From NCBI GenBank assembly GCA_035995165.1, contig DASYKU010000044.1, positions 1-64,000 on the forward strand: a stretch of DNA of 64,000 nt, in the 5' to 3' direction. Position 1 is the first letter of the stretch. The number at the start of each line of letters is the position of its first letter. This document shows positions 1-38,265 of the stretch, piece by piece. The notes beneath the pieces were generated by a model, which saw nothing but the letters and a program-made list of their open reading frames with translations, was not told the origin of the DNA and did not search any database. A program made the translations under genes and the position numbers. Source of the DNA: Mycobacteriales bacterium. Lineage in GTDB: Bacteria > Actinomycetota > Actinomycetes > Mycobacteriales > CADCTP01.

Positions 1-3000
1 GGACGCTGGGGCGGCGCGAGGGAGCGACGCCGTACATGGTGGTGCTCTCCGCCTTCCAGGTGCTGCTGTCGAAGTACAGCGGGAGCACGGACATCGTCGT
101 CGGGAGCCCCATCGCGGGCCGGACGAGGAAGGAGGTCGAGGAGCTGATCGGCTTCTTTGTCAACACGCTGGTGCTGCGCGCCGACCTCTCGGGAGACCCG
201 AGCTTCCGGGAGGTGCTGGGGCGGGTGCGGGAGGCGACGCTGGGCGCGTACGCGCACCAGGAGCTTCCCTTCGAGAAGCTGGTGGCCGAGCTGCAGCCGG
301 AGCGCAGCTTGAGCCACTCGCCGCTCTTCCAGGTGATGTTCGCGCTGCAGAACGCCGAGGGCGGGGGCGCTCTTCCGGGGCTGGAGGTCAGCGGAGTCGG
401 AGCGGCCATGGAGATCGCCCAGTTCGATCTCTCCCTGACGCTCTGGACGACCCCCAAGGGGCTGCGTGGCGCGCTGAACTACGGCACGGACCTCTTCGAG
501 CGCGGCACGGTCGAACGGATGCTCGGCCACCTGGAGCGGGTGCTGGAGCAGGTCACCGCGGACGCGGACGTGCGGCTTTCGCGGCTGGAGCTGCTCGGCG
601 AGGCGGAGCGCGCGCTGGTGGTGGAGGCGTGGAACCGGACCGAAGCGGAGTATCCGGCGGAGCTGTGCATCCACGTGCTGTTCGAGGAACAGGCGGCGCG
701 CACGCCGGGGGCGGTCGCGGTCGTCTACGAAGGAGAGGCGCTAAGCTACGCGGAGCTGAACGCAAAGGCCAACCGTCTCGCCCACCACCTGCGCGGCCAC
801 GGCGTGGGCCCGGAGGTGCGGGTGGGCGTGCTGATGGAGCGGAGCCTGGAGATGGTGGTCGGCATCCTGGCCATCCTCAAGGCCGGCGGCGCGTACGTGC
901 CGCTGGATCCCGGGTATCCCGCGGAGCGTCTCGCCTTCACCCTGTCCGACGCCGGCGTGCCCATCGTGCTGGCGCAGGAGACGGTGCGCGCGACCCTCGC
1001 GGTGCCGGATGGCGTGGAGCTGATCAGCCTCGACGCCGCGCGTGTGGAGATCGCGGCGGAGCCGGCGGAGAACCCGGCGGGCGGCGCGGGGCCGGATTCG
1101 GTGGCGTACGTCATCTACACCTCCGGCTCCACCGGCCGCCCCAAGGGCGCCATGAACAGCCGCCGGGGGCTGGACAACCGGCTGCGCTGGATGCAGCGCG
1201 CGTACGGGCTGACGGCGGCGGACGCGGTGCTGCAGAAGACCCCGGTCGGCTTCGACGTGTCGGTCTGGGAGTGCTACTGGGGCCTGCTCACCGGCGCCCG
1301 CACGGTGGTCGCCCGGTCCGGCGGGCACCGCGATCCCGCCTATCTGACCGAGCTGATCGAGACCCAGCGGGTCACCGTCGCGCACTTCGTGCCGTCCATG
1401 CTGCGGGTCTTCCTGGACACCGCGGACCTGGGCCGGTGCGGCTCGCTGCGCCAGGTCGTGGTCAGCGGCGAGGAGCTGACGGCCCGGCTGCAAAGGCGGT
1501 TCTTCGACAGCGGCCTGCGCGCCGGCCTCGACAACCTGTACGGGCCGGCCGAGGCGGCCATCGACGTGACCCGCTGGCAGTGCGGGCCGGGGGACGAGCC
1601 GGCGGTGCCGATCGGCCGCCCGGTCGAGCAGACCAGCACGTACGTCCTGGACGCCGCCGGCCGGCCGCTGCCGGCGGGGGCCGAGGGCGAGCTGCACCTC
1701 GGCGGGGTCCAGGTCGGGCGCGGCTACCTGGGGCGGCCGGGGCTGACCGCGGACCGGTTCGTGCCGGACCCGTTCTCGGACACCCCCGGCAGCCGGCTCT
1801 ACCGGACCGGGGACCGGGCCCGGCTGCGCCCGGACGGCGCGCTGGACTACCTGGGCCGGCTGGACGAGCAGATCAAGCTGCACGGCGTACGGATCGAGCT
1901 CGGCGAGGTCGAGGCCGTGCTCGCGGCCCAGCCCGGCGTCCGGGCGGCCGCGGCGGCGGTGCGCGGGACCGCCGACGACGCCGTCCTGGTCGGGTACGTG
2001 GTGGGGGACGCCGAGCCGCGGGCGCTGCGGACCCGGCTGGCCGAGCTGCTGCCCGAGCACACCGTGCCCGGCGTCGTCGTCGGGCTGGACGCGCTGCCGC
2101 TGTCGGCCAACGGCAAGCTCGACCGCCGGGCCCTGCCGGACCCGCCATCCGCCGGGGACGGTCTCGCCGACGGCGCGGGTAGCCCGCTGGAACGGGAGCT
2201 CGCGACCCTGTGGGGCGAGCTGCTCGGCCGCGGGCCGATCGGCCTGGACGACGACTTCACCGAGCTCGGCGGCAACTCGCTGCACGCGGTCCGCTTCCTG
2301 ACCCGGATCCGGAGCCGGTACGAGCAGCCGCTGACCCTGTGGCAGCTGTTCACCGCGCGGACGCCGCGGGAGCTGGCGGCCCTGCTGGAGCAGGACGCCG
2401 AGGGCGACGCCCTGCCGCCCCTGCGGCACCGGGCCGACACGGCGCTGGTGCCCTCGTCGGGCCAGCAGCGGCTCTGGTTCCTGGACCACCTCAGCCCGGC
2501 TGCCGGTGTGGCGTACAACGTGCCGACCGCGTCCCGGTTTCGCGGGCCGCTCGACGTGGCCGCGCTGGAGGCCGCGCTGAGCGACGTCGCCGGCCGGCAC
2601 GAGCAGCTGCGGACGTCCTTCGAGCTGGTCGGGGGGTCGCTCGGCGCGCGGGCGCAGGACCGGCCGCTGCCGCTGCACGTGGTCGACCTGCGCGGGCAGC
2701 CCGACGCCGAGCGGGAGGCGCGCGAGCAGGCCGACCGGGTCGCGGCCGAGCACCTGGACCTGGCCGCCGCGCCGCTGGGCCGGAGCGTGCTGTTCCGGTT
2801 GGGCGACGAGGACCACCTGCTCGTGACCGTCCTGCACCACCTGGTCGCCGACGGGTGGACGATGGACGTCGTCGATCGCGACCTGGCCGACGCGTACGCC
2901 GCGCGGGTCCAGGGCCGGCCGCCCGGGTGGGTTCCGCCCGGCCTGACGTACCGCGACTTCACCGCCTGGCAGCTCACGCTGCCCGATCTGCTCGCGTACT

Positions 3001-6000
3001 GGCGGGATGCGCTCGACGGCGCCCCGGTCGTGCTGGAACTGCCGGCCGACCACCCGCGGCCCGCCACCCGCAGCCACCGCGGCCGGCGGATCGGTCTCCG
3101 CGCGCCGGCCGGCCTGCTGGCGACCGTCCGGGAGCTGGCCGGCCGGACCCGGAGCACGCCGTACGTGGTCTGCCTGGCCGCGTTCGGCCTGCTGCTGCGG
3201 GAGCTCACCGGCCGGACCGACCAGCTCGTCGCCTCGCCCGCGGCGGGCCGGCCCGACCCCGCGCTGGAGGACGTGGCCGGCTTCTTCGCCACCACCGTGC
3301 CCGTCCGCGTACGCCCCGGCGACGGGTCCTTCCGGGCGCTCGTCGGGGCTCTGCACCGCACGGCCCTGGACGCGCTGGACCACCAGTACGTGCCGTTCGA
3401 GAAGCTCGTGGCCGAGCTCGCGCCGGCCGGCGACCTGTCCCGGCCGCCGCTGGCGCAGGTGGCGCTGGCCTATCAGGGGCCGCTGCGGCCGTACGCGCGG
3501 CTCGACGGGCTGGCTGTGGCGCCGGTCCCGGTGGACAACGGGACCGCGAAGTTCGACCTGACCGTCGAGCTGCACGAGGTCGGGGACGAGCTGCACGTGG
3601 TCCTCGAGTACTGCACCGACCTGTTCGAGGCCGAGCGGGCCGAGGCGATGCTCGACCGGTACGTCGACCTGCTGGGCACCGCCGTCGGCGATCCCGACGC
3701 CGCGGTCCCGGCGCTCATCACCCCGCTCGTCGAGCCGGCGCCGCTTGCCGAGCCGGCGCCGCTTGCCGAGGCGGCGCCGTTTGCCGAGGCGGCCTCGCTC
3801 GCTGAGGCGGCGCCGTTTGCCGAGGCGGCGCCGCTCGTCGAGCCGGCGCCGTTTGCCGAGGCGGCCTCGCTCGCTGAGGCGGCGCCGCTTGCCGAGGCGG
3901 CCGCTGCGGATCGGCGTTGTCTGCATGAGATCTTCGCCGACGCCGCCGCGCGCTGGCCGGACCGGATCGCCGTCTCCGATCCCGGCCGCGGGCTCGCGTA
4001 CCGGGACCTGGACCTGGCCGCGAACCGGCTCGCCCACCGGCTGCGCCGGGCCGGCGCCGGTCCCGGGGTACTGGTCGGGCTGTGCGCCGACCGTACGGTC
4101 GACCTCGTCGTCGGCGTGCTGGCCGTGCTCAAGGCCGGGGCCGCGTACCTGCCGCTTGATCCCTCCCATCCGGCCGCCCGGCTGGACCTGGTCCTGGCCG
4201 ACGCCGACTGCCGGATCCTGCTGGCGGACGCGGAGTGGGCGGCCGCGCTGGCCGGATCCGGCCGCGCGGTGGTCGGCCTGGACGAGCCGACGACCGGCGA
4301 GCCCGAGGACCCGCCCCGGACCGGCGTACGGCCCGAGGACGCGGCCTACGTCATCTACACCTCCGGCTCGACCGGCCGGCCCAAGGGCGTCGTCGTCAGC
4401 CATGCGAACGTCACCCGGCTGTTCACCGCGACCGACGCCGACTTCGGCTTCGGACCCGAGGACGTCTGGACGCTGTTCCACTCGATCGCCTTCGACTTCT
4501 CGGTCTGGGAGCTGTGGGGCGCGCTCCGGTACGGCGGCCGCCTCGTCGTGGTCCCGCACCTGACCAGCCGGGAGCCGGCCGCGTTCCTCGACCTGCTCCG
4601 GGTCGAGCGGGTGACCGTGCTCAACCAGACGCCGACGGCGTTCCGGCAGCTGGCGGCCGTCGCCGAGGACGCCGGCTTCCCCGCCCACGACCTGCGCGTG
4701 GTGGTCTTCGGCGGGGAGGCGCTGGACCCGGCGACGCTGCGCGGCTGGGTCGGCGGCTACGGCACCGCCCGGCCGCGGCTGGTCAACATGTACGGGATCA
4801 CCGAGACCACCGTGCACGTGACCGTCCGCCCGATCGCCCTGGCCGACCTCACCGACGCGGGCAGCCCGATCGGCCGGCCGATCGGGGACCTCCGGGTGCA
4901 CGTCCTCGGCCCGGACCTGGCCGAGCTGCCGGCCGGCACCGAGGGCGAGATGTACGTCGGCGGACCGGGCGTGGCCCGTGGCTACCTGGACCGGCCGGCC
5001 CTGACCGCGGACCGGTTCGTGCCGGACCCGTGGGGCACCCCGGGCGACCGGCTGTACCGCACCGGCGACCTCGCCGTACGGCGTCCGGACGGCGAGCTGG
5101 AGTACCGGGGGCGGGCGGACAGCCAGGTGAAGGTCCGGGGGTTCCGGGTCGAGCTCGGCGAGATCGACCGGGCGTTGCTGGACCAGCCCGGTGTCCGGGC
5201 GGCGGCCTGCGTGCTGCGGGCGGACGAGCCGGGCGCGCCCAGGCTGGTCGCCTACCTCGTCCCGGAGCCGGGCCGGGCGGCCCGGCCGGCGGACGTCCGC
5301 GCGGCGCTGCTGGAGCGGCTGCCCGGGCACATGGTGCCGGCCGCCTTCGTCCCGCTCGACGCGCTGCCGCTGTCGCCCAACGGCAAGCTCGACCGGGCCG
5401 GCCTGCCGCGGCCGTCGTCCGACGACCTCGCGCTGTCCGGGCCCGGGGTGCGGCCGCGGACCGAGACCGAGCGCGCGCTGGCGCAGGCGTGGTCGGGGGT
5501 GCTCGGCGTCGACGAGCCCGACGTGCACGACAACTTCTTCGCCGCCGGCGGCGACTCGATCGTCGCCATCCGACTGGGGGTGGCGGCCCGCGCGGCCGGG
5601 CTGCCGGTCACCGTCGAGGCGCTCTTCCTGCATCCGACGATTGCCGAGCTCGCCGCGGAGTGCGACCGGCTCGGGGGCGGCCCGGCCGAGACGTCCGGTC
5701 CGGTGGTGTCGACCGGGCTGGCCGACCTCGACCCGGCGGACCTGCCCGCCGACGTGGTCGACGCCTACCCGACCGCGGCGATGCAGCTCGGGATCCTCTT
5801 CGAGTGCGAGCTGTCCGACGAGTCCGAGCTCTACCACGACCTGATGAGCGTGCAGGTCGCCGCCCGGTTCGACCGGCCGGCGCTGGAACGGGCGCTGGCC
5901 GGCCTCTGCGCCCGGCACGAGATCCTGCGGACCACCTTCGACCTGGGCGGCTTCCGGGAGCCGATGCAGTTCGTGCACCGCAGCGCCGTGGTGCCGGTGA

Positions 6001-7034
6001 CCGTGCAGGACCTCGGGTCCGGCTCGGCCGAGGAGGCGCTGGCGGACTGGTGGCGCCGGGAGCAGGCCGACCCGTTCGACCTGGGCCGGGCGCCGCTGGT
6101 CCGCTGTGCCGTGCTGCGCCGGACGCCCGGGTCGTTCCAGCTTTCGCTGGCCGTCCACCACATCGTGCTCGACGGCTGGAGCCTCGCGCAGCTGATGACC
6201 GAGCTGCTGCTGCGGTACGACGCCGGGCTGCGCGGCCAGGACGCCGAGCTGCCACCCCCGGCCGCGCGCTACCGCGACTTCGTCGCCGCCGAGCAGGCGG
6301 CGGCGGCCGACCCGACCGCTGAGCTCTTCTGGACCGAGCGGCTCGGCCCCGACAGCGCTCCGTCCGCGGCGCCGGACCAGGCGTCGCAGGGGGGCGCCTT
6401 CCGGGAGCTGCTGCCGGACGAGCTGGACGCGGACCTCCGGCGTACTGCGGCGGACCTGGGCCTGCCGGTGAAGAGCCTGTTCTTCGCCGCCCACCTGGCC
6501 GCCCTGGCCGCGCTGACCGAGCGGCCCGGCGTGGTCAGCGGCCTGGTCTCCAGCGGCCGGCCGGAGCAGGAGGACTCCGACCAGGTCCTCGGCCTGCTGC
6601 TGAACATCCTGCCGATCCGGGCGACCGTGTCCGGGTCCTGGGCCGAGCTGGCCCGGGCGGCGTTCGACGCCGAGCGGGAGACCCTGCCGTTCCGGCGCTT
6701 CCCGCTGGCCCGCATCCAGCGGCTGGCCGGACGCGATCGCGCGGTCTTCGAGGTGGCGTTCAACCACACGGACTTCCACGTGCTGGCCGGGCTCGACGCG
6801 CTGCGGGAGGTCCGCGTCCTGGACTGGTGGTTCTCCGACCAGCACAGCTTCCCGCTGATGGTCGAGGTGAACCGGGTGCCCGGCTCGGGACGACGGCTGC
6901 TGGAGGTGACGGCGAGCGCGGACAGCCGGCTCGCGGACTCGGCGACCCGGCTCGGTGCGCTCCTCCGGCAGGCCCTGGAGCGCCTCGCCGCCGACCCGTC
7001 CGCGTCCGCCGAGCACTGGTCGGTGGCCCGGTAG
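1..7034 (+). CDS. Nonribosomal peptide synthetase, 5'-truncated by window edge (C*-A(Ser)-PCP-C-A(Thr)-PCP-C)
   Basis: Cytoplasmic peptide assembly line; 2343 residues are visible and the reading frame is open from base 3, so the true start lies upstream. Order by base: end of a condensation domain (3-640), adenylation 1 (about 690-2130, A3 motif YTSGSTGRPKG near 1110, NGKLDRR), carrier 1 (GGNSL near 2270), condensation 2 (HHLVADG, about 2440-3700), repeat linker (3726-3905), adenylation 2 (about 3920-5400), carrier 2 (GGDSI near 5550), terminal condensation domain (HHIVLDG, 5755-7010). Aligning the A4-A5 segments to GrsA by eye gives pocket codes DVWHVSLID(K), close to the serine code, and DFWNVGMVH(K), close to threonine. 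There is no thioesterase, reductase or epimerase domain, so release or transfer happens elsewhere or through the last C domain. The following ABC genes may export the product (inference). Confidence 0.95.
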   Translation, partial: TLGRREGATPYMVVLSAFQVLLSKYSGSTDIVVGSPIAGRTRKEVEELIGFFVNTLVLRADLSGDPSFREVLGRVREATLGAYAHQELPFEKLVAELQPERSLSHSPLFQVMFALQNAEGGGALPGLEVSGVGAAMEIAQFDLSLTLWTTPKGLRGALNYGTDLFERGTVERMLGHLERVLEQVTADADVRLSRLELLGEAERALVVEAWNRTEAEYPAELCIHVLFEEQAARTPGAVAVVYEGEALSYAELNAKANRLAHHLRGHGVGPEVRVGVLMERSLEMVVGILAILKAGGAYVPLDPGYPAERLAFTLSDAGVPIVLAQETVRATLAVPDGVELISLDAARVEIAAEPAENPAGGAGPDSVAYVIYTSGSTGRPKGAMNSRRGLDNRLRWMQRAYGLTAADAVLQKTPVGFDVSVWECYWGLLTGARTVVARSGGHRDPAYLTELIETQRVTVAHFVPSMLRVFLDTADLGRCGSLRQVVVSGEELTARLQRRFFDSGLRAGLDNLYGPAEAAIDVTRWQCGPGDEPAVPIGRPVEQTSTYVLDAAGRPLPAGAEGELHLGGVQVGRGYLGRPGLTADRFVPDPFSDTPGSRLYRTGDRARLRPDGALDYLGRLDEQIKLHGVRIELGEVEAVLAAQPGVRAAAAAVRGTADDAVLVGYVVGDAEPRALRTRLAELLPEHTVPGVVVGLDALPLSANGKLDRRALPDPPSAGDGLADGAGSPLERELATLWGELLGRGPIGLDDDFTELGGNSLHAVRFLTRIRSRYEQPLTLWQLFTARTPRELAALLEQDAEGDALPPLRHRADTALVPSSGQQRLWFLDHLSPAAGVAYNVPTASRFRGPLDVAALEAALSDVAGRHEQLRTSFELVGGSLGARAQDRPLPLHVVDLRGQPDAEREAREQADRVAAEHLDLAAAPLGRSVLFRLGDEDHLLVTVLHHLVADGWTMDVVDRDLADAYAARVQGRPPGWVPPGLTYRDFTAWQLTLPDLLAYWRDALDGAPVVLELPADHPRPATRSHRGRRIGLRAPAGLLATVRELAGRTRSTPYVVCLAAFGLLLRELTGRTDQLVASPAAGRPDPALEDVAGFFATTVPVRVRPGDGSFRALVGALHRTALDALDHQYVPFEKLVAELAPAGDLSRPPLAQVALAYQGPLRPYARLDGLAVAPVPVDNGTAKFDLTVELHEVGDELHVVLEYCTDLFEAERAEAMLDRYVDLLGTAVGDPDAAVPALITPLVEPAPLAEPAPLAEAAPFAEAASLAEAAPFAEAAPLVEPAPFAEAASLAEAAPLAEAAAADRRCLHEIFADAAARWPDRIAVSDPGRGLAYRDLDLAANRLAHRLRRAGAGPGVLVGLCADRTVDLVVGVLAVLKAGAAYLPLDPSHPAARLDLVLADADCRILLADAEWAAALAGSGRAVVGLDEPTTGEPEDPPRTGVRPEDAAYVIYTSGSTGRPKGVVVSHANVTRLFTATDADFGFGPEDVWTLFHSIAFDFSVWELWGALRYGGRLVVVPHLTSREPAAFLDLLRVERVTVLNQTPTAFRQLAAVAEDAGFPAHDLRVVVFGGEALDPATLRGWVGGYGTARPRLVNMYGITETTVHVTVRPIALADLTDAGSPIGRPIGDLRVHVLGPDLAELPAGTEGEMYVGGPGVARGYLDRPALTADRFVPDPWGTPGDRLYRTGDLAVRRPDGELEYRGRADSQVKVRGFRVELGEIDRALLDQPGVRAAACVLRADEPGAPRLVAYLVPEPGRAARPADVRAALLERLPGHMVPAAFVPLDALPLSPNGKLDRAGLPRPSSDDLALSGPGVRPRTETERALAQAWSGVLGVDEPDVHDNFFAAGGDSIVAIRLGVAARAAGLPVTVEALFLHPTIAELAAECDRLGGGPAETSGPVVSTGLADLDPADLPADVVDAYPTAAMQLGILFECELSDESELYHDLMSVQVAARFDRPALERALAGLCARHEILRTTFDLGGFREPMQFVHRSAVVPVTVQDLGSGSAEEALADWWRREQADPFDLGRAPLVRCAVLRRTPGSFQLSLAVHHIVLDGWSLAQLMTELLLRYDAGLRGQDAELPPPAARYRDFVAAEQAAAADPTAELFWTERLGPDSAPSAAPDQASQGGAFRELLPDELDADLRRTAADLGLPVKSLFFAAHLAALAALTERPGVVSGLVSSGRPEQEDSDQVLGLLLNILPIRATVSGSWAELARAAFDAERETLPFRRFPLARIQRLAGRDRAVFEVAFNHTDFHVLAGLDALREVRVLDWWFSDQHSFPLMVEVNRVPGSGRRLLEVTASADSRLADSATRLGALLRQALERLAADPSASAEHWSVAR
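3726..3905 (+). repeat. 18-bp tandem repeat (10 units) coding a Pro/Ala/Glu linker in the NRPS
   Basis: Ten consecutive 18-bp units encode hexapeptides of the form (L/F)(A/V)E(P/A)A(P/S/A), such as LAEAAP, FAEAAS and LVEPAP. The array joins condensation domain 2 to adenylation domain 2. The units are nearly identical at DNA level, so copy number is probably unstable between strains. A flexible or extended interdomain spacer is the likely role. Confidence 0.9.
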
Positions 7035-11687: not shown

Positions 11688-11791
11688 CCACCCGTCCGTC
11701 CGGGGTCGCGCCGTCCGGGGTCGCACCGTCCGGGGTCGCACCGTGCGGGGTCGCACCGTGCGGGGTCGTGGCGCACTGGGTCCCGGGGTGA
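11684..11791 (+). CDS. Bridging ORF of 35 codons made of 15-bp tandem repeats
   Basis: The ATG overlaps the stop of the upstream permease (ATGA) and the TGA overlaps the GTG start of the downstream permease (GTGA). The coding DNA is mostly a 15-bp tandem repeat (about five units between 11697 and 11769), giving pentapeptides GVAPS and GVAPC. A functional peptide is doubtful. The arrangement would let ribosomes pass from one permease cistron to the next. The alternative is an untranslated spacer whose overlaps are accidental. Confidence 0.45.
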   Translation: MTTRPSGVAPSGVAPSGVAPCGVAPCGVVAHWVPG

Positions 11792-24545: not shown

Positions 24546-24575
24546 TTATCTCACCAACCACGAGAGGAGTGCACA

Positions 24576-25322
24576 ATGCACACCCACACCACACAGAACC
24601 GGCAGGGTCACCCTGACCGGCATCCGCACCGGCACGGGCCGTTCGGTCGCGAGTTCGGTCCCGGCGTCGACCGGGGCGAGCGCGAGGACCGGCGCGGCCG
24701 GCACGGCGGGTTCGGGCGCCTGCCCGGCTTCCCGCCGACCCCAGGAGGCCCCGGCCCCGGCTTCGGCCCGGGCATGGGCCCGGGTCCGGGCTTCGGTCCG
24801 GGCATGCGTCCGGGTCCCGGACGCGGCCGGCACCGCGGTCGCGGCGCCCGCCGCGGCGACGTCCGGGCCGCCGTGCTCGCGCTGCTCATCGAGCGGCCGA
24901 TGCACGGGTACGAGCTCATCCAGCAGATCGAGGAGCGGTCCGGCGGCGTCTGGCGGCCGAGCCCGGGCTCGATCTATCCGACCCTCCAGCTGCTCGCGGA
25001 CGAGGGTCTGGTCTCCGGCGACGAGACCGGCGGGCGGCGGCTGTTCACGCTGACCGACGCCGGCCGCGAGGAGGACGCCAAGCACGAGGGCCAGTCGCCC
25101 TTCACCCAGGAGCGGGACGAGACCTTCGAGGTCGCGCACCAGTTCCGGGAGGAGATGGCGCAGCTCGGGATGGCGGTCTGGCAGGTCGCCCAGGTGGGCA
25201 CCGAGGCGCAGCGCACCGAGATCCTCGGGGTGCTGGCCGAGGCTCGGCGGCGGGCCTACCAGCTGCTGGCCGACGGCGGGTCCGAGGACTCCGCCGCGCC
25301 CGACCCCGCCCCGGCGGAGTGA
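24576..25322 (+). CDS. PadR family transcriptional regulator with His/Gly/Pro-rich N-terminal extension
   Basis: 248 residues. The first 90 or so are low complexity: a His-rich start followed by GPGFGPGM-type repeats. The PadR winged helix follows (VLALLIERPMHGYELIQQIE, PSPGSIYPTLQLLADEGLV, GGRRLFTLTDAGREE), then a helical dimerisation tail. Similar Gly-rich PadR proteins are common in actinomycetes and usually control an adjacent transporter; here no exporter follows directly. GAGAGGAG (24560-24567) and ATG at 24576 fix the start. A strong terminator follows. Confidence 0.88.
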   Translation: MHTHTTQNRQGHPDRHPHRHGPFGREFGPGVDRGEREDRRGRHGGFGRLPGFPPTPGGPGPGFGPGMGPGPGFGPGMRPGPGRGRHRGRGARRGDVRAAVLALLIERPMHGYELIQQIEERSGGVWRPSPGSIYPTLQLLADEGLVSGDETGGRRLFTLTDAGREEDAKHEGQSPFTQERDETFEVAHQFREEMAQLGMAVWQVAQVGTEAQRTEILGVLAEARRRAYQLLADGGSEDSAAPDPAPAE

Positions 25323-25330
25323 ACCAGCCC

Positions 25331-25363
25331 TGCGGCCCCGGAAGAAACCCTTCCGGGGCCGCA
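25331..25363 (+). terminator. Hairpin terminator after the PadR gene
   Basis: TGCGGCCCCGGAAG (25331-25344) pairs perfectly with CTTCCGGGGCCGCA (25350-25363) around a 5-nt loop, 8 nt after the stop codon. Confidence 0.85.
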
Positions 25364-25389
25364 CCTGTCTGCGGGCACAATCTCCAGTC

Positions 25390-25752
25390 ATGACGACGCC
25401 CCGCAGCATCGGATCGCTGTCCTCTATCGAGAGCGCCGCCTCGACCGGCTCGGTCGGCTCGGCCGGGTCCCTGGCCTCGGTCGGGAGCGCGGGCTCGATC
25501 GCCTCGATCGGGTCGGCCGGCTGCATCGGCTCGATCGGCAGCGCCGGCTGCATCGCCTCGGTCGGGAGCGCGGGCTCGGTCGCCTCGATCGGCAGCGTGG
25601 GGTCCTTCGGCTCGATCGCGAGCGTCGGGTCCTTCGGCTCGATCCTCAGCGTCGGAAGCTCGGGCGCGATCGGCGCCGTGTTCGGACGCCCGGTCCTCGG
25701 CCCCGCCCTCGAACGCCTCACCGCCGCGGTCAGCACCCGCCTCTCCCGCTAG
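25390..25752 (+). CDS. (Ser-X-Gly/Ala)n tripeptide-repeat protein, function unknown
   Basis: 120 residues. From residue 6 to about 95 the sequence is an almost unbroken three-residue repeat: Ser (rarely Cys or Ala), a hydrophobic or small residue (I, V, F, A, L), then Gly or Ala, for example SIGSAGCIGSIGSAG. About 30 triplets are present. The last 25 residues (AVFGRPVLGPALERLTAAV) leave the repeat and look like an amphipathic helix. No signal peptide or catalytic motif is seen. Such a strict period suggests a beta-solenoid or polyglycine-II-like rod. ATG at 25390 has no ribosome binding site, and CACAAT about 10 nt upstream would fit a leaderless transcript. I do not recognise a characterised family. 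Confidence 0.65.
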   Translation: MTTPRSIGSLSSIESAASTGSVGSAGSLASVGSAGSIASIGSAGCIGSIGSAGCIASVGSAGSVASIGSVGSFGSIASVGSFGSILSVGSSGAIGAVFGRPVLGPALERLTAAVSTRLSR

Positions 25753-25983: not shown

Positions 25984-27441
25984 CTAGAGCGAGCGGCCGT
26001 GGCGGGAGCCGCGGAGGGCCAACCCGATGGCGGCGAGTCCGAAGAGGACGGACACCCCGAGCGCCAGCCCGTACGCCTGCCCGTACGACGCGGCGGGATC
26101 CGGCCCGGGGGAGCGGGACGAGGCGTAGAAGACCGCGCTGATGACCGCGGCCCCGATCGCGTTGCCGATCCGCTGTGACGTCTGCAGCGTGCCGCCCGCG
26201 GTCGAGCCGCCGGCGGCGTCGACGTCGGCCAGCGAGAGCGCCTGGTTCGGGGTGATCACGCTGCCGCCGCCGAGCCCGGAGACCAGCAGCGGCACCAGCA
26301 GCAGCAACGCCACCCCGGTCGGCCAGACCCGGCCGGCCGCGAGCAGCCCGGTCAGCCCGGATGCGGCCACGCCGAGGGTGAACAGCACCAGCCCGTCGAC
26401 GAGCACCCGCGATCCCATCCGGGGCAGCAACCGGCCGGCGATCGGCGCCGCGACCGTCACCCCGACCGCGTACGCCGAGGACGTCAGCCCGGCCTGCAAC
26501 GGCGAGAACCCCAGCCCCTGCTGCAGGAACAGCGCCAGCACCAGCGGCGTCCCCGTGTAGGCGCAGAAGAACAGGATCGCCAGCCAGATCCCGTCCGAGT
26601 ACGAGGAGATGCGGAACAGGTCGAGGTCGATCAGCGGGTGCCCGCGGCGCTTGGCCGGCCCGCGCTCCCAGAGGTAGAAGGCGGCCAGCAGGGCCACCGC
26701 CGGCACCAGCAGCACCGCCAGCCGCGGGTCGTGGTTGGCGTCGTACTGGACCGCCGGCAACAGCAGCACGAACACCCCGGCCGCCAGCAGCGCCGCGCCC
26801 GGCAGGTCCAGGGCCCGGGCCGGCCCGTCCCGCCGGCCCGGCGCGGGCAGCCAGAGCCGGCAGAGCACGAACGCGACGATCCCGATCGGCACGTTGATGA
26901 GGAAGCAGAGCCGCCAGCCGTACCGGTCGCCGCCGAGGGCGAGGATCACCCCGCCGAGCACCGGTCCGGTCGCGGTCGCGACGCCGACCGCGGTGCCGAT
27001 GACGCCGAAGGCCCGGCCGCGTTCCCAGCGCGGGAACAGCTGCTGCACCAGCCCGGACACCTGCGGGTTGAGCAGCCCGCCGGCCAGCCCCTGCAGCACC
27101 CGCCCGGCCACCAGCACGGTGGGGTTCGGGGCCAGCCCGACCGCGGCGCTGAAGACGACGAACGCGGCGATCCCGATCAGCAGCAGCAGCCGCCGGCCGC
27201 GGTCGTCGCCGAGCCGGCCGGCGATGATCGGCACCATCCCGAACGCCAGCGCGTACCCGGAGACGACCCACTGCAGCTGCGCCGGCCCGGCCCCGGTGTC
27301 CCGGCCGATGGAGAACAGCGCGACGTTGACGATGCTGACGTCCAGCAGCGTGATGTAGAGCGCGCAGACGCAGGTGCCCAGCGCCCGCCAGCGGAGGGGG
27401 TCGAGCTGCGCGCCCGACCCGCCGTCCGCCACTGTGCTCAC
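25984..27441 (-). CDS. MFS multidrug exporter, 14-TM EmrB/QacA type
   Basis: Proton-driven efflux protein of 485 residues with about 14 membrane segments. LLDVSIVNVAL in helix 1, GRLGDDRGRR in the 2-3 loop and GPVLGGVI (motif C of drug:H+ antiporters) identify the family. GTG at 27441 is chosen because it overlaps the stop of a short upstream ORF (GTGA) and precedes STVADGGS, after which helix 1 begins. The gene is divergent from cytosine deaminase. Confidence 0.9.
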   Translation of the reverse strand: MSTVADGGSGAQLDPLRWRALGTCVCALYITLLDVSIVNVALFSIGRDTGAGPAQLQWVVSGYALAFGMVPIIAGRLGDDRGRRLLLLIGIAAFVVFSAAVGLAPNPTVLVAGRVLQGLAGGLLNPQVSGLVQQLFPRWERGRAFGVIGTAVGVATATGPVLGGVILALGGDRYGWRLCFLINVPIGIVAFVLCRLWLPAPGRRDGPARALDLPGAALLAAGVFVLLLPAVQYDANHDPRLAVLLVPAVALLAAFYLWERGPAKRRGHPLIDLDLFRISSYSDGIWLAILFFCAYTGTPLVLALFLQQGLGFSPLQAGLTSSAYAVGVTVAAPIAGRLLPRMGSRVLVDGLVLFTLGVAASGLTGLLAAGRVWPTGVALLLLVPLLVSGLGGGSVITPNQALSLADVDAAGGSTAGGTLQTSQRIGNAIGAAVISAVFYASSRSPGPDPAASYGQAYGLALGVSVLFGLAAIGLALRGSRHGRSL

Positions 27442-28152: not shown

Positions 28153-29550
28153 ATGGCGGTCACTGTTCCTGCCGAAGCGGTACGCGAGGGCACGTACGGC
28201 GACCGGGTGGTCGCGGTCGAGCCCGGCGGCGTCGGCTTCATTCCGCTGGAGGAGCGGCACGGCCGCCCCCGGCAGCTGCTGTGGACCTGGGCCTCGCCCA
28301 ACCTCGAGTTCGCCACGGTCTTCGTCGGCGTGCTCGCGGTGGCCGCGTTCGGGCTCGGGTTCTGGGTCGCGCTGGCCGCGATCGTGCTCGGCACCGGCCT
28401 CGGCGCGGTCTCGCACGGCGTGCTGTCCGCGCGCGGTCCCGCCCACGGCGTACCGCAGATGGTGCTGTCGCGGCTGGGCTTCGGCTACTGGGGCAACGTG
28501 CTGCCGGCCGGGCTGAACGCGATCACCGCCGGCATCGGCTGGTTCGCGGTCAACAGCGTCAGCGGCGCGCTCGCCCTGAACACGCTCACCGACCTGCCCA
28601 AGGTCGTCTGCCTGATCGTCATCGTGGCGGTCCAGCTCGGGGTCGCGTTCTTCGGCCACAACCTGGTCCAGGCCTTCGAGCGGTACGCCTTCCCGATCCT
28701 GGCCGTCATCTTCCTCATCGCCGCGATCACGATCTTCGCCAAGACCACCCCGAGCGCCGGCGCGGGCGGCGGCAGCGGCAGCCTCGGCGGCTTCCTGCTC
28801 ACCGTCGGCGCGACGTTCGGCTACGCGGCCGGCTGGAACCCCTACGCCGCCGATTACACCCGCTACTTCCGGGCCGACGTCAGCAAGCGGGCGGTCGGCT
28901 GGTGCGCCGGGCTCGGCGTGTTCGTCTCCTGCGTGCTGCTGGAGACGGTCGGGGCCGGGGCGGCCACGCTGGTCGACCCGGGCGCGGCGCTGGGCGACCC
29001 GACCGGCAGCTTCACCGGCAACCTGCCGTCGGTGACGGCGAACCTGACGCTGCTGGCGATCGCGCTCGGCGCGGTCTCGGCCAACGCGCTGAACGTCTAC
29101 TCCGGCGCGATGTCGTTCGTCGCGCTCGGCGTGAACCTGCCACTGGCCGCCCGCCGGGCGATCTCCGCTCTCGGCTTCGGCCTGATCGGCTTCGTCGTCG
29201 CGCTCACCGGCCTGGACGACGCGGGCGCGAAGTACGAGAGCTTCCTGCTCGTCATCGCGTACTGGATCGGGCCCTGGCTCGGGGTCATGTTCGTCGACCA
29301 GGCGCTGCGCCGCGGGCAGCCGCTGGCACAGTTCCTCTACGACAAGCGGTACGCGAACTGGGCCGGCCCGATCGCGATGCTGTCGGGGATGCTGATCTCG
29401 ATCCTGCTGTTCTCCAACCAGACCCGGTTCGTCGGCTACGTGGCCCGGCAGTCCTCGTCCTTCGGCGACATCGCCTTCGAGGTCGGGTTCCTCGTCGCGG
29501 CCGGGGTCTACTACGCGCTGGCCGCGAACAAGGTTCGCGCCCGGACCTAG
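28153..29550 (+). CDS. NCS1 family cytosine/purine permease
   Basis: 465 residues, about 12 membrane segments. Family motifs include GLGAVSHGVLSARGPAHGVPQ, NAITAGIGWFAVN, GYAAGWNPYAADYTRYF and ALNVYSGAMSF, matching CodB-type nucleobase:cation symporters. It imports cytosine or a related base for the deaminase upstream. ATG at 28153 follows GGGAGG. The stop codon is embedded in a 13-bp tandem repeat. Confidence 0.9.
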   Translation: MAVTVPAEAVREGTYGDRVVAVEPGGVGFIPLEERHGRPRQLLWTWASPNLEFATVFVGVLAVAAFGLGFWVALAAIVLGTGLGAVSHGVLSARGPAHGVPQMVLSRLGFGYWGNVLPAGLNAITAGIGWFAVNSVSGALALNTLTDLPKVVCLIVIVAVQLGVAFFGHNLVQAFERYAFPILAVIFLIAAITIFAKTTPSAGAGGGSGSLGGFLLTVGATFGYAAGWNPYAADYTRYFRADVSKRAVGWCAGLGVFVSCVLLETVGAGAATLVDPGAALGDPTGSFTGNLPSVTANLTLLAIALGAVSANALNVYSGAMSFVALGVNLPLAARRAISALGFGLIGFVVALTGLDDAGAKYESFLLVIAYWIGPWLGVMFVDQALRRGQPLAQFLYDKRYANWAGPIAMLSGMLISILLFSNQTRFVGYVARQSSSFGDIAFEVGFLVAAGVYYALAANKVRART

Positions 29551-29576
29551 CGCCCGGACCTAGCACCCGGACCTAG
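29538..29576. repeat. 13-bp tandem repeat containing the permease stop codon
   Basis: Three units of CGCCCGGACCTAG (29538, 29551, 29564; one mismatch in the third). The first contains the TAG stop. The 13-bp period shifts frame, so a stop appears in every frame. A partial inverted copy (CCGGTCCTAG) follows at 29581. Confidence 0.8.
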
Positions 29577-38176: not shown

Positions 38177-38216
38177 CGGCGTCGCGGCGGGTGCCCCCGT
38201 GCCCGTCGCGACGCCG
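38177..38216 (+). terminator. Hairpin terminator after the amidohydrolase gene
   Basis: A 15-bp stem with one G-U pair: CGGCGTCGCGGCGGG (38177-38191) against CCCGTCGCGACGCCG (38202-38216), 10-nt loop, 4 nt after the stop codon. Confidence 0.8.
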
Positions 38217-38265
38217 TCCCAGGAACGACGCCGTCCCAGGAACGACGCCGTCCCAGGAACGACGC
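38209..38265. repeat. 17-bp tandem repeat between amidohydrolase and SDR genes
   Basis: Three full units of CGACGCCGTCCCAGGAA (38209, 38226, 38243) plus a partial fourth. The first overlaps the 3' arm of the terminator, so the array grew from the terminator stem. No coding role is seen. Confidence 0.85.

Follow-up and report, generated by a model that had tools for sequence, protein, structure and literature searches.

What does a 120-residue open reading frame encode when most of its translation is a run of serine-led tripeptides, and is it a gene at all? This question is raised by a locus in the window, that is, the whole stretch of 64,000 nucleotides analyzed here (positions 1 to 64,000 of contig DASYKU010000044.1 from a Mycobacteriales bacterium). 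The first-pass annotation had described it as a strict Ser-X-Gly/Ala repeat of about 30 triplets with Ser or Cys in first place. The ORF at 25390-25752 (+) translates to MTTPRSIGSLSSIESAASTGSVGSAGSLASVGSAGSIASIGSAGCIGSIGSAGCIASVGSAGSVASIGSVGSFGSIASVGSFGSILSVGSSGAIGAVFGRPVLGPALERLTAAVSTRLSR, and its parts are the following.

25390..25752, + strand: coding sequence of the Ser-X-Gly/Ala repeat protein, 120 aa, one complete ORF with ATG start and TAG stop
25405..25665, + strand: repeat core, residues 6-92, 29 consecutive Ser/Cys-first triplets (repeat analysis)
25405..25665, + strand: nonapeptide superperiod S-x-A S-I/V-G S-A/V-G within the core
25666..25749, + strand: C-terminal tail AIGAVFGRPVLGPALERLTAAVSTRLSR, net +3, with the (A/G)xGxVFxxPV motif, which by alignment it shares with the closest subfamily

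A serine-triplet gene under purifying selection

Indeed, the repeat is strict in the window protein: its longest period-3 run of Ser/Cys comprised 29 triplets, whereas this run never exceeded 9 (mean 3.4) in 10,000 composition-preserving shuffles. Over residues 18-93, triplet position 1 was occupied by Ser (23), Cys (2) or Ala (1), position 2 mainly by Ile, Val, Ala or Phe, and position 3 by Gly (19), Ala (5) or Leu (1); in the complete core, Gly took the third position in 20 of the 29 triplets, and neither His nor Asp occurred. Judged by eye, the protein is consistent with the absence of a signal peptide noted before. GC3 of the coding sequence was 0.96, and its codon use fits a coding gene of the same genome. 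Since the serines of the gene are encoded by a mixture of 21 TCN and 10 AGY codons, the amino-acid repeat does not merely reproduce a repeated DNA unit.

By chance, Ser-x-Gly might nevertheless be read from a repeat in DNA or RNA, or from the strand opposite another ORF: the repeat is visible at the DNA level, a long antisense ORF lies at 24546-25736, and some weak matches in other genomes consist simply of GSVGSV runs embedded in other ORFs. Comparison of the 44 members of the family that we identified (see below) argues against this, as the sense frame was open in all of them, whereas each of the five other frames was broken in at least 16. Furthermore, dN/dS among the Nocardia orthologues was only 0.07-0.28. 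The protein of the congener L031 is 63% identical to the window protein with a naive dN/dS of 0.73, a ratio raised by TCN<->AGY codon-box switches, which inflate dN; such switches affected 12 of the 26 serines shared by the two proteins, showing that serine is kept at the protein level. A putative promoter is also positioned at the start codon. The non-protein reading is already refuted in practice, and its probability is negligible. We conclude that this is a real, single-copy, stand-alone protein-coding gene under purifying selection.

Distribution and repeat unit of the family

The assignment of the window protein to an Actinomycetota-wide family, with members in Nocardia, Janibacter, Streptomyces and many other genera, is well supported. 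Relatives of the window protein were detected in Nocardia and Janibacter, and homologues with identical frame and register were found across the phylum, so that the absence of such homologues, named in the first-pass annotation as a refutation, does not apply. Among 61 genomes of close and distant relatives, 20 had a relative; matches were present in 70 of 399 genomes of the order and in 37 of 396 genomes sampled from the phylum, not all of the latter being true members. The gene is nearly always present in a single copy per genome. Profile-search scores are raised by the repeat itself, and five weak matches from the phylum scan (L062, L071, L073, L075 and L077), consisting of plain GSVGSV/GSAGSA runs, were left out as non-members. 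Homology across classes is likely, not proven, given the equal core length, the similar start and end motifs and the matching promoter arrangement.

None of the libraries searched describes the family. In profile scans of the family proteins, no model of Pfam or NCBIfam exceeded its cut-off, PADLOC gave no match, and literature searches, based on repeat strings as well as descriptive terms, returned nothing on the family, so that the earlier statement that no characterized homologue is known was borne out. Among solved structures, the matches were limited to collagens and to the Ser-rich linkers of fusion constructs and thus reflect composition, and matches to PHROGs tail fibres were rejected as low-complexity hits obtained with the window protein only. 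With the window protein as query, plasmid and phage collections gave no match; with a Streptomyces member, eight Streptomyces plasmids, including linear ones, were matched. The Streptomyces members, and the plasmid-borne ones where annotated, are labeled ‘hypothetical protein’.

Autocovariance of third-position Gly and second-position Ala peaked at lags 3 and 6 (in triplets), and the true repeat is thus nine residues long, S-x-[L/A] S-[I/V]-G S-x-G. Of the 44 members, 42 contained two or more tandem nonamers of the form S-x-[LAG] S-[IVF]-[GA] S-x-[GY], and the window protein with its 29 triplets fits this pattern. Core length was held at 17-31 triplets, mostly 21-29, which argues against free slippage. 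This superperiod and the conserved length had been overlooked in the first-pass annotation. Of its Ser-X-Gly/Ala pattern, the serine part stands, the Ser columns being invariant in the family alignment, whereas Gly/Ala at the third position is not strict across relatives (Gly in 451 of 1009 family triplets, 45%). Pro and Asp are rare, with 5 and 15 occurrences, respectively, in 3027 core residues. Streptomyces-type cores start with SLWSxxS and end with SWLSxGSxxSAxSxxSxLSWRS, and the C-terminal motif (A/G)xGxVFxxPV is common to the closest subfamily, which comprises congeneric members and genera from two further families of the order; it is also present in L096.

The family may be placed among short-period repeat proteins, and it lacks a defining feature of each of the collagen, His-Xaa-Ser, RTX and hexapeptide β-helix proteins. 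Collagen (PF01391), the best Pfam match at a sub-threshold 25.0 vs 27.2 bits, and collagen-like proteins such as Scl/Lcl adhesins share period 3 and frequent Gly with it. However, collagen expects Gly at every third residue and Pro at X/Y, in contrast to the Gly and Pro counts given above.

Putative promoter and genomic neighborhood

Upstream and downstream of the repeat gene, we identified the following features.

24576..25322, + strand: PadR-family regulator (Pfam PF03551, E 1.3e-21), upstream neighbor with Gly/Pro-rich N-terminus
25331..25363, + strand: GC-rich hairpin with a perfect 14-bp stem between the PadR gene and the promoter, −33.6 kcal/mol, z = −7.3 (−7.26), no T-run
25376..25381, + strand: −10-like hexamer CACAAT, 8 nt before the ATG, putative leaderless promoter (family comparison)
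25984..27432, − strand: MFS-type transporter, convergent downstream neighbor, identified from its sequence, 79% identical in the congener L031

The window ATG is not preceded by a Shine-Dalgarno sequence, and CACAAT with its context occurs only once in the genome at zero mismatches. A [TCG]AnnAT hexamer whose end lies 4-9 nt (in most cases 6-7 nt) upstream of the start codon was found in 17 of 37 members vs 16 of 418 neighboring genes (Fisher p 3e-12, a value that is descriptive only, since start codons were partly chosen by eye before counting and the motif was noticed before testing); for a wider hexamer pattern, the numbers were 24 of 37 and 48 of 418. Nocardia and L032-34 members have the related hexamer forms TGTGGTAGACC and AGTGGGAGACT, and in most members GG stands just 5′ of the hexamer. 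In actinobacteria, leaderless genes are marked by TA-like signals some 10-12 bp upstream of the start (PMC3160421). The leaderless start proposed before is thus supported by the comparison, and the repeat gene very probably has a promoter of its own that yields a leaderless mRNA. A shared regulon, searched for with the Nocardia promoter TGTGGTAGAC, was rejected, as the one other match in four genomes was no better than the reversed-pattern control. The strong terminator reported upstream of the gene is real as a stable hairpin, and it is the probable terminator of the PadR gene; since the T-run is missing, the terminator search found no consensus terminator.

The repeat gene is a stand-alone unit. 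In the 40 loci compared, no neighbor was common beyond genus level, save members of very large families (e.g., MFS transporters), and the downstream gene was convergent in 22. No functional association was found. ABC-exporter, MFS and acyl-CoA dehydrogenase neighbors were rejected as partners, as each is limited to one lineage or belongs to a very large family, and a serine-codon attenuator was rejected because the downstream genes are not conserved and in many cases convergent. The PadR neighbor is probably not functionally linked to the repeat gene either, since L031 has kept an intact repeat gene and an intact convergent MFS gene although its PadR gene is reduced to a C-terminal remnant by decay.

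The surroundings showed several further features. Ahead of its winged helix, the PadR protein has a long Gly/Pro/Phe-rich low-complexity N-terminus (GFGPGMGPGPGFGPGMRPGPGRGRHRGRG), and TRF located a 30-bp repeat within its gene at 24747-24820. The L031 remnant (3438-4027, − strand; ..AARRRAYQLLAEDTG) adjoins a DUF1810-like gene, whereas in the window this gene is found at a distance of 4 kb, which points to a deletion between them. In Nocardia (L003-L009, L038, L039), the repeat gene is flanked by a conserved, secreted-looking protein of 215-250 aa and, in most, on the other side by a DUF1906-like glycoside-hydrolase-type gene, a block conserved only within this genus. The window itself begins with a large NRPS-like ORF (36-7034, 2332 aa called), which contains an in-frame 18-bp tandem repeat at 3721-3902, and short near-perfect tandem repeats lie in the gaps between called genes or at gene ends at 11696-11782 (15 bp), 29537-29576 (13 bp) and 38209-38265 (17 bp).

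The neighborhood also bears on the possibility that the regularly spaced serines are substrate sites of a modifying enzyme (phosphorylation, glycosylation or dehydration), as considered by analogy to the His-Xaa-Ser proteins (HxsA, NCBIfam NF038313), which likewise consist of tripeptide repeats with a fixed position for Ser. In the present family, no other residue is nearly as constant as Ser, which is replaced only occasionally, sometimes by Cys, and NCBIfam HxsA4 was the top match, with 34 bits against a curated cut-off of 55. However, the window repeat has no His, no enzyme is conserved next to the gene, and the HxsB/HxsC radical-SAM pair is missing beside it. TIGR03977 (HxsC) did not exceed its cut-off anywhere in the source genome, where only generic matches were obtained, as in all 14 control genomes. 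We therefore consider a role as modification substrate quite improbable.

Possible folds of the core and a possible role of the tail

Structure prediction had been proposed as a check of the repeat. We ran AlphaFold2 for the window protein with 25 relatives and for a Streptomyces member with 17, and neither run gave a confident structure for the core, most of which had a pLDDT of ~36-41. A C-terminal helix was predicted in both runs, spanning residues 103-119 of the window protein, with a pLDDT of ~69-79 over the last 20 residues. The amphipathic tail of the first-pass annotation was thus upheld as a predicted helix, whereas its amphipathicity was not significant, the hydrophobic moment not being above shuffled order (p = 0.23).

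The tails differ between members. Many have a C-terminal 19-residue hydropathy of ~1.5 or more, and in the Streptomyces-type and several other members the tail is a clear single hydrophobic segment resembling a membrane anchor, with a 19-residue average of up to 2.5; that of the window protein is weakly hydrophobic, with a best average of 0.88. Several members have acidic or Cys-rich tails in place of an anchor, so that membrane tethering cannot be universal. Among these, the related L046 and L048 both carry GECDCCGSAG at their Cys-rich end, and the Nocardia proteins terminate in CHCQT/CHSQT, in contrast to the hydrophobic tails of other members. Given the modest hydropathy of the Ser-rich core (19-residue maxima of 1.2-2.1), it is unlikely that the core itself forms a transmembrane bundle.

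Without a fixed monomer fold, the low-complexity core could self-associate into a functional amyloid or condensate. Its repetitive, nearly uncharged, Ser/Gly-rich composition with regularly spaced Ile/Val would suit this, as would the lack of a confident AlphaFold2 fold, but the strict register, the invariant Ser columns and the conserved length and end motifs would not usually be expected of a disordered region, which makes this explanation distinctly doubtful.

The core could also form a short β-solenoid of 4-5 coils, in which two nonapeptides make a coil of 18 residues, as in left-handed β-helices or RTX rolls, with Ser ladders stacked along the axis and the Trp/Arg-containing ends as caps. 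Eighteen residues are a classical coil length and agree with the superperiod of 9; the core length is conserved, and the conserved end motifs (SLWSxxS; SWLSxGS..SWRS, Streptomyces-type) resemble caps. However, AlphaFold2 usually finds β-solenoids and did not find one here, and hydrophobicity showed no β-type periodicity. The hexapeptide motif [LIV]-[GAED]-x2-[STAV]-x of left-handed β-helix proteins, whose 18-residue coil would be compatible with periods of 3 or 9, matched only 2 of 14 window hexads in the best frame and 27 of 479 (6%) family-wide, and no confident β structure was predicted. RTX proteins share the nine-residue, Gly-rich unit, but GGxGxDxUx with its Asp is missing here, there is practically no Asp, and the locus has no type I secretion context. 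A β-solenoid is, therefore, rather unlikely.

What we favor, tentatively and as possible rather than probable, is that this selected, phylum-wide, probably leaderless gene encodes a membrane-tethered, self-assembling rod with three residues per turn. The core, of ~75-90 residues, would form an extended, polyproline-II/polyglycine-II-like helix whose three edges are lined by Ser, by Ile/Val/Ala and by Gly/Ala/Leu, respectively. Because a single chain lacks turns through which it could fold back, the rods are proposed to pack side by side between molecules. Through the C-terminal helix, the assembly may be tethered to the membrane on its cytoplasmic side; in Streptomyces-type members this helix would act as a hydrophobic anchor, and in the subfamily of the window protein it would be short, basic and peripheral. 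The protein would more likely serve as a scaffold or other structural element at the membrane than as an enzyme. Both fold and function are inferred.

In favor of such a rod, hydrophobicity is periodic at 120° only (moment 0.276 vs 0.053-0.08 at α and β angles), which is expected for a three-residues-per-turn helix but is also a direct result of a triplet repeat. The low pLDDT of the core counts against it, and so does Gly at only 45% of third positions, since the known polyproline-II bundle proteins are Gly-rich and fold back through turns (PMC8409303). Against the tether count the weak hydropathy of the window tail and its amphipathicity not above shuffles, and the lack of any functional association counts against this explanation as well. 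The snow-flea antifreeze protein and other Gly-rich bundles resemble the core in their exact three-residue period, the small residue on one edge and the lack of α/β periodicity, but they fold back as 6-13 short helices, whereas the window core runs through 29 triplets without a turn (PMC8409303). In addition, the strict residue here is Ser and not Gly, and the locus has no link to cold or secretion. The polyglycine-II or β-solenoid fold suggested in the first-pass annotation was thus not established, given the Gly content, the absence of turn breaks and the AlphaFold2 result, and its antifreeze comparison found no support as to role. That these are single rods of ~80 residues with a serine edge in an intermolecular, membrane-tethered lattice, i.e., a fold not yet seen and a previously unknown type of bacterial structural element found across Actinomycetota, appears rather unlikely.

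If intermolecular three-fold rods proved true, they would extend the small set of glycine-rich polyproline-II bundle proteins by a further structural class. The locus belongs to a well-defined, usually single-copy, selected family without a curated family model in a medically and industrially important phylum. Its repeat defeats AlphaFold2, and since the protein is short, simple and easy to express, the question of how a Ser-X-Gly nonapeptide repeat folds is directly testable.
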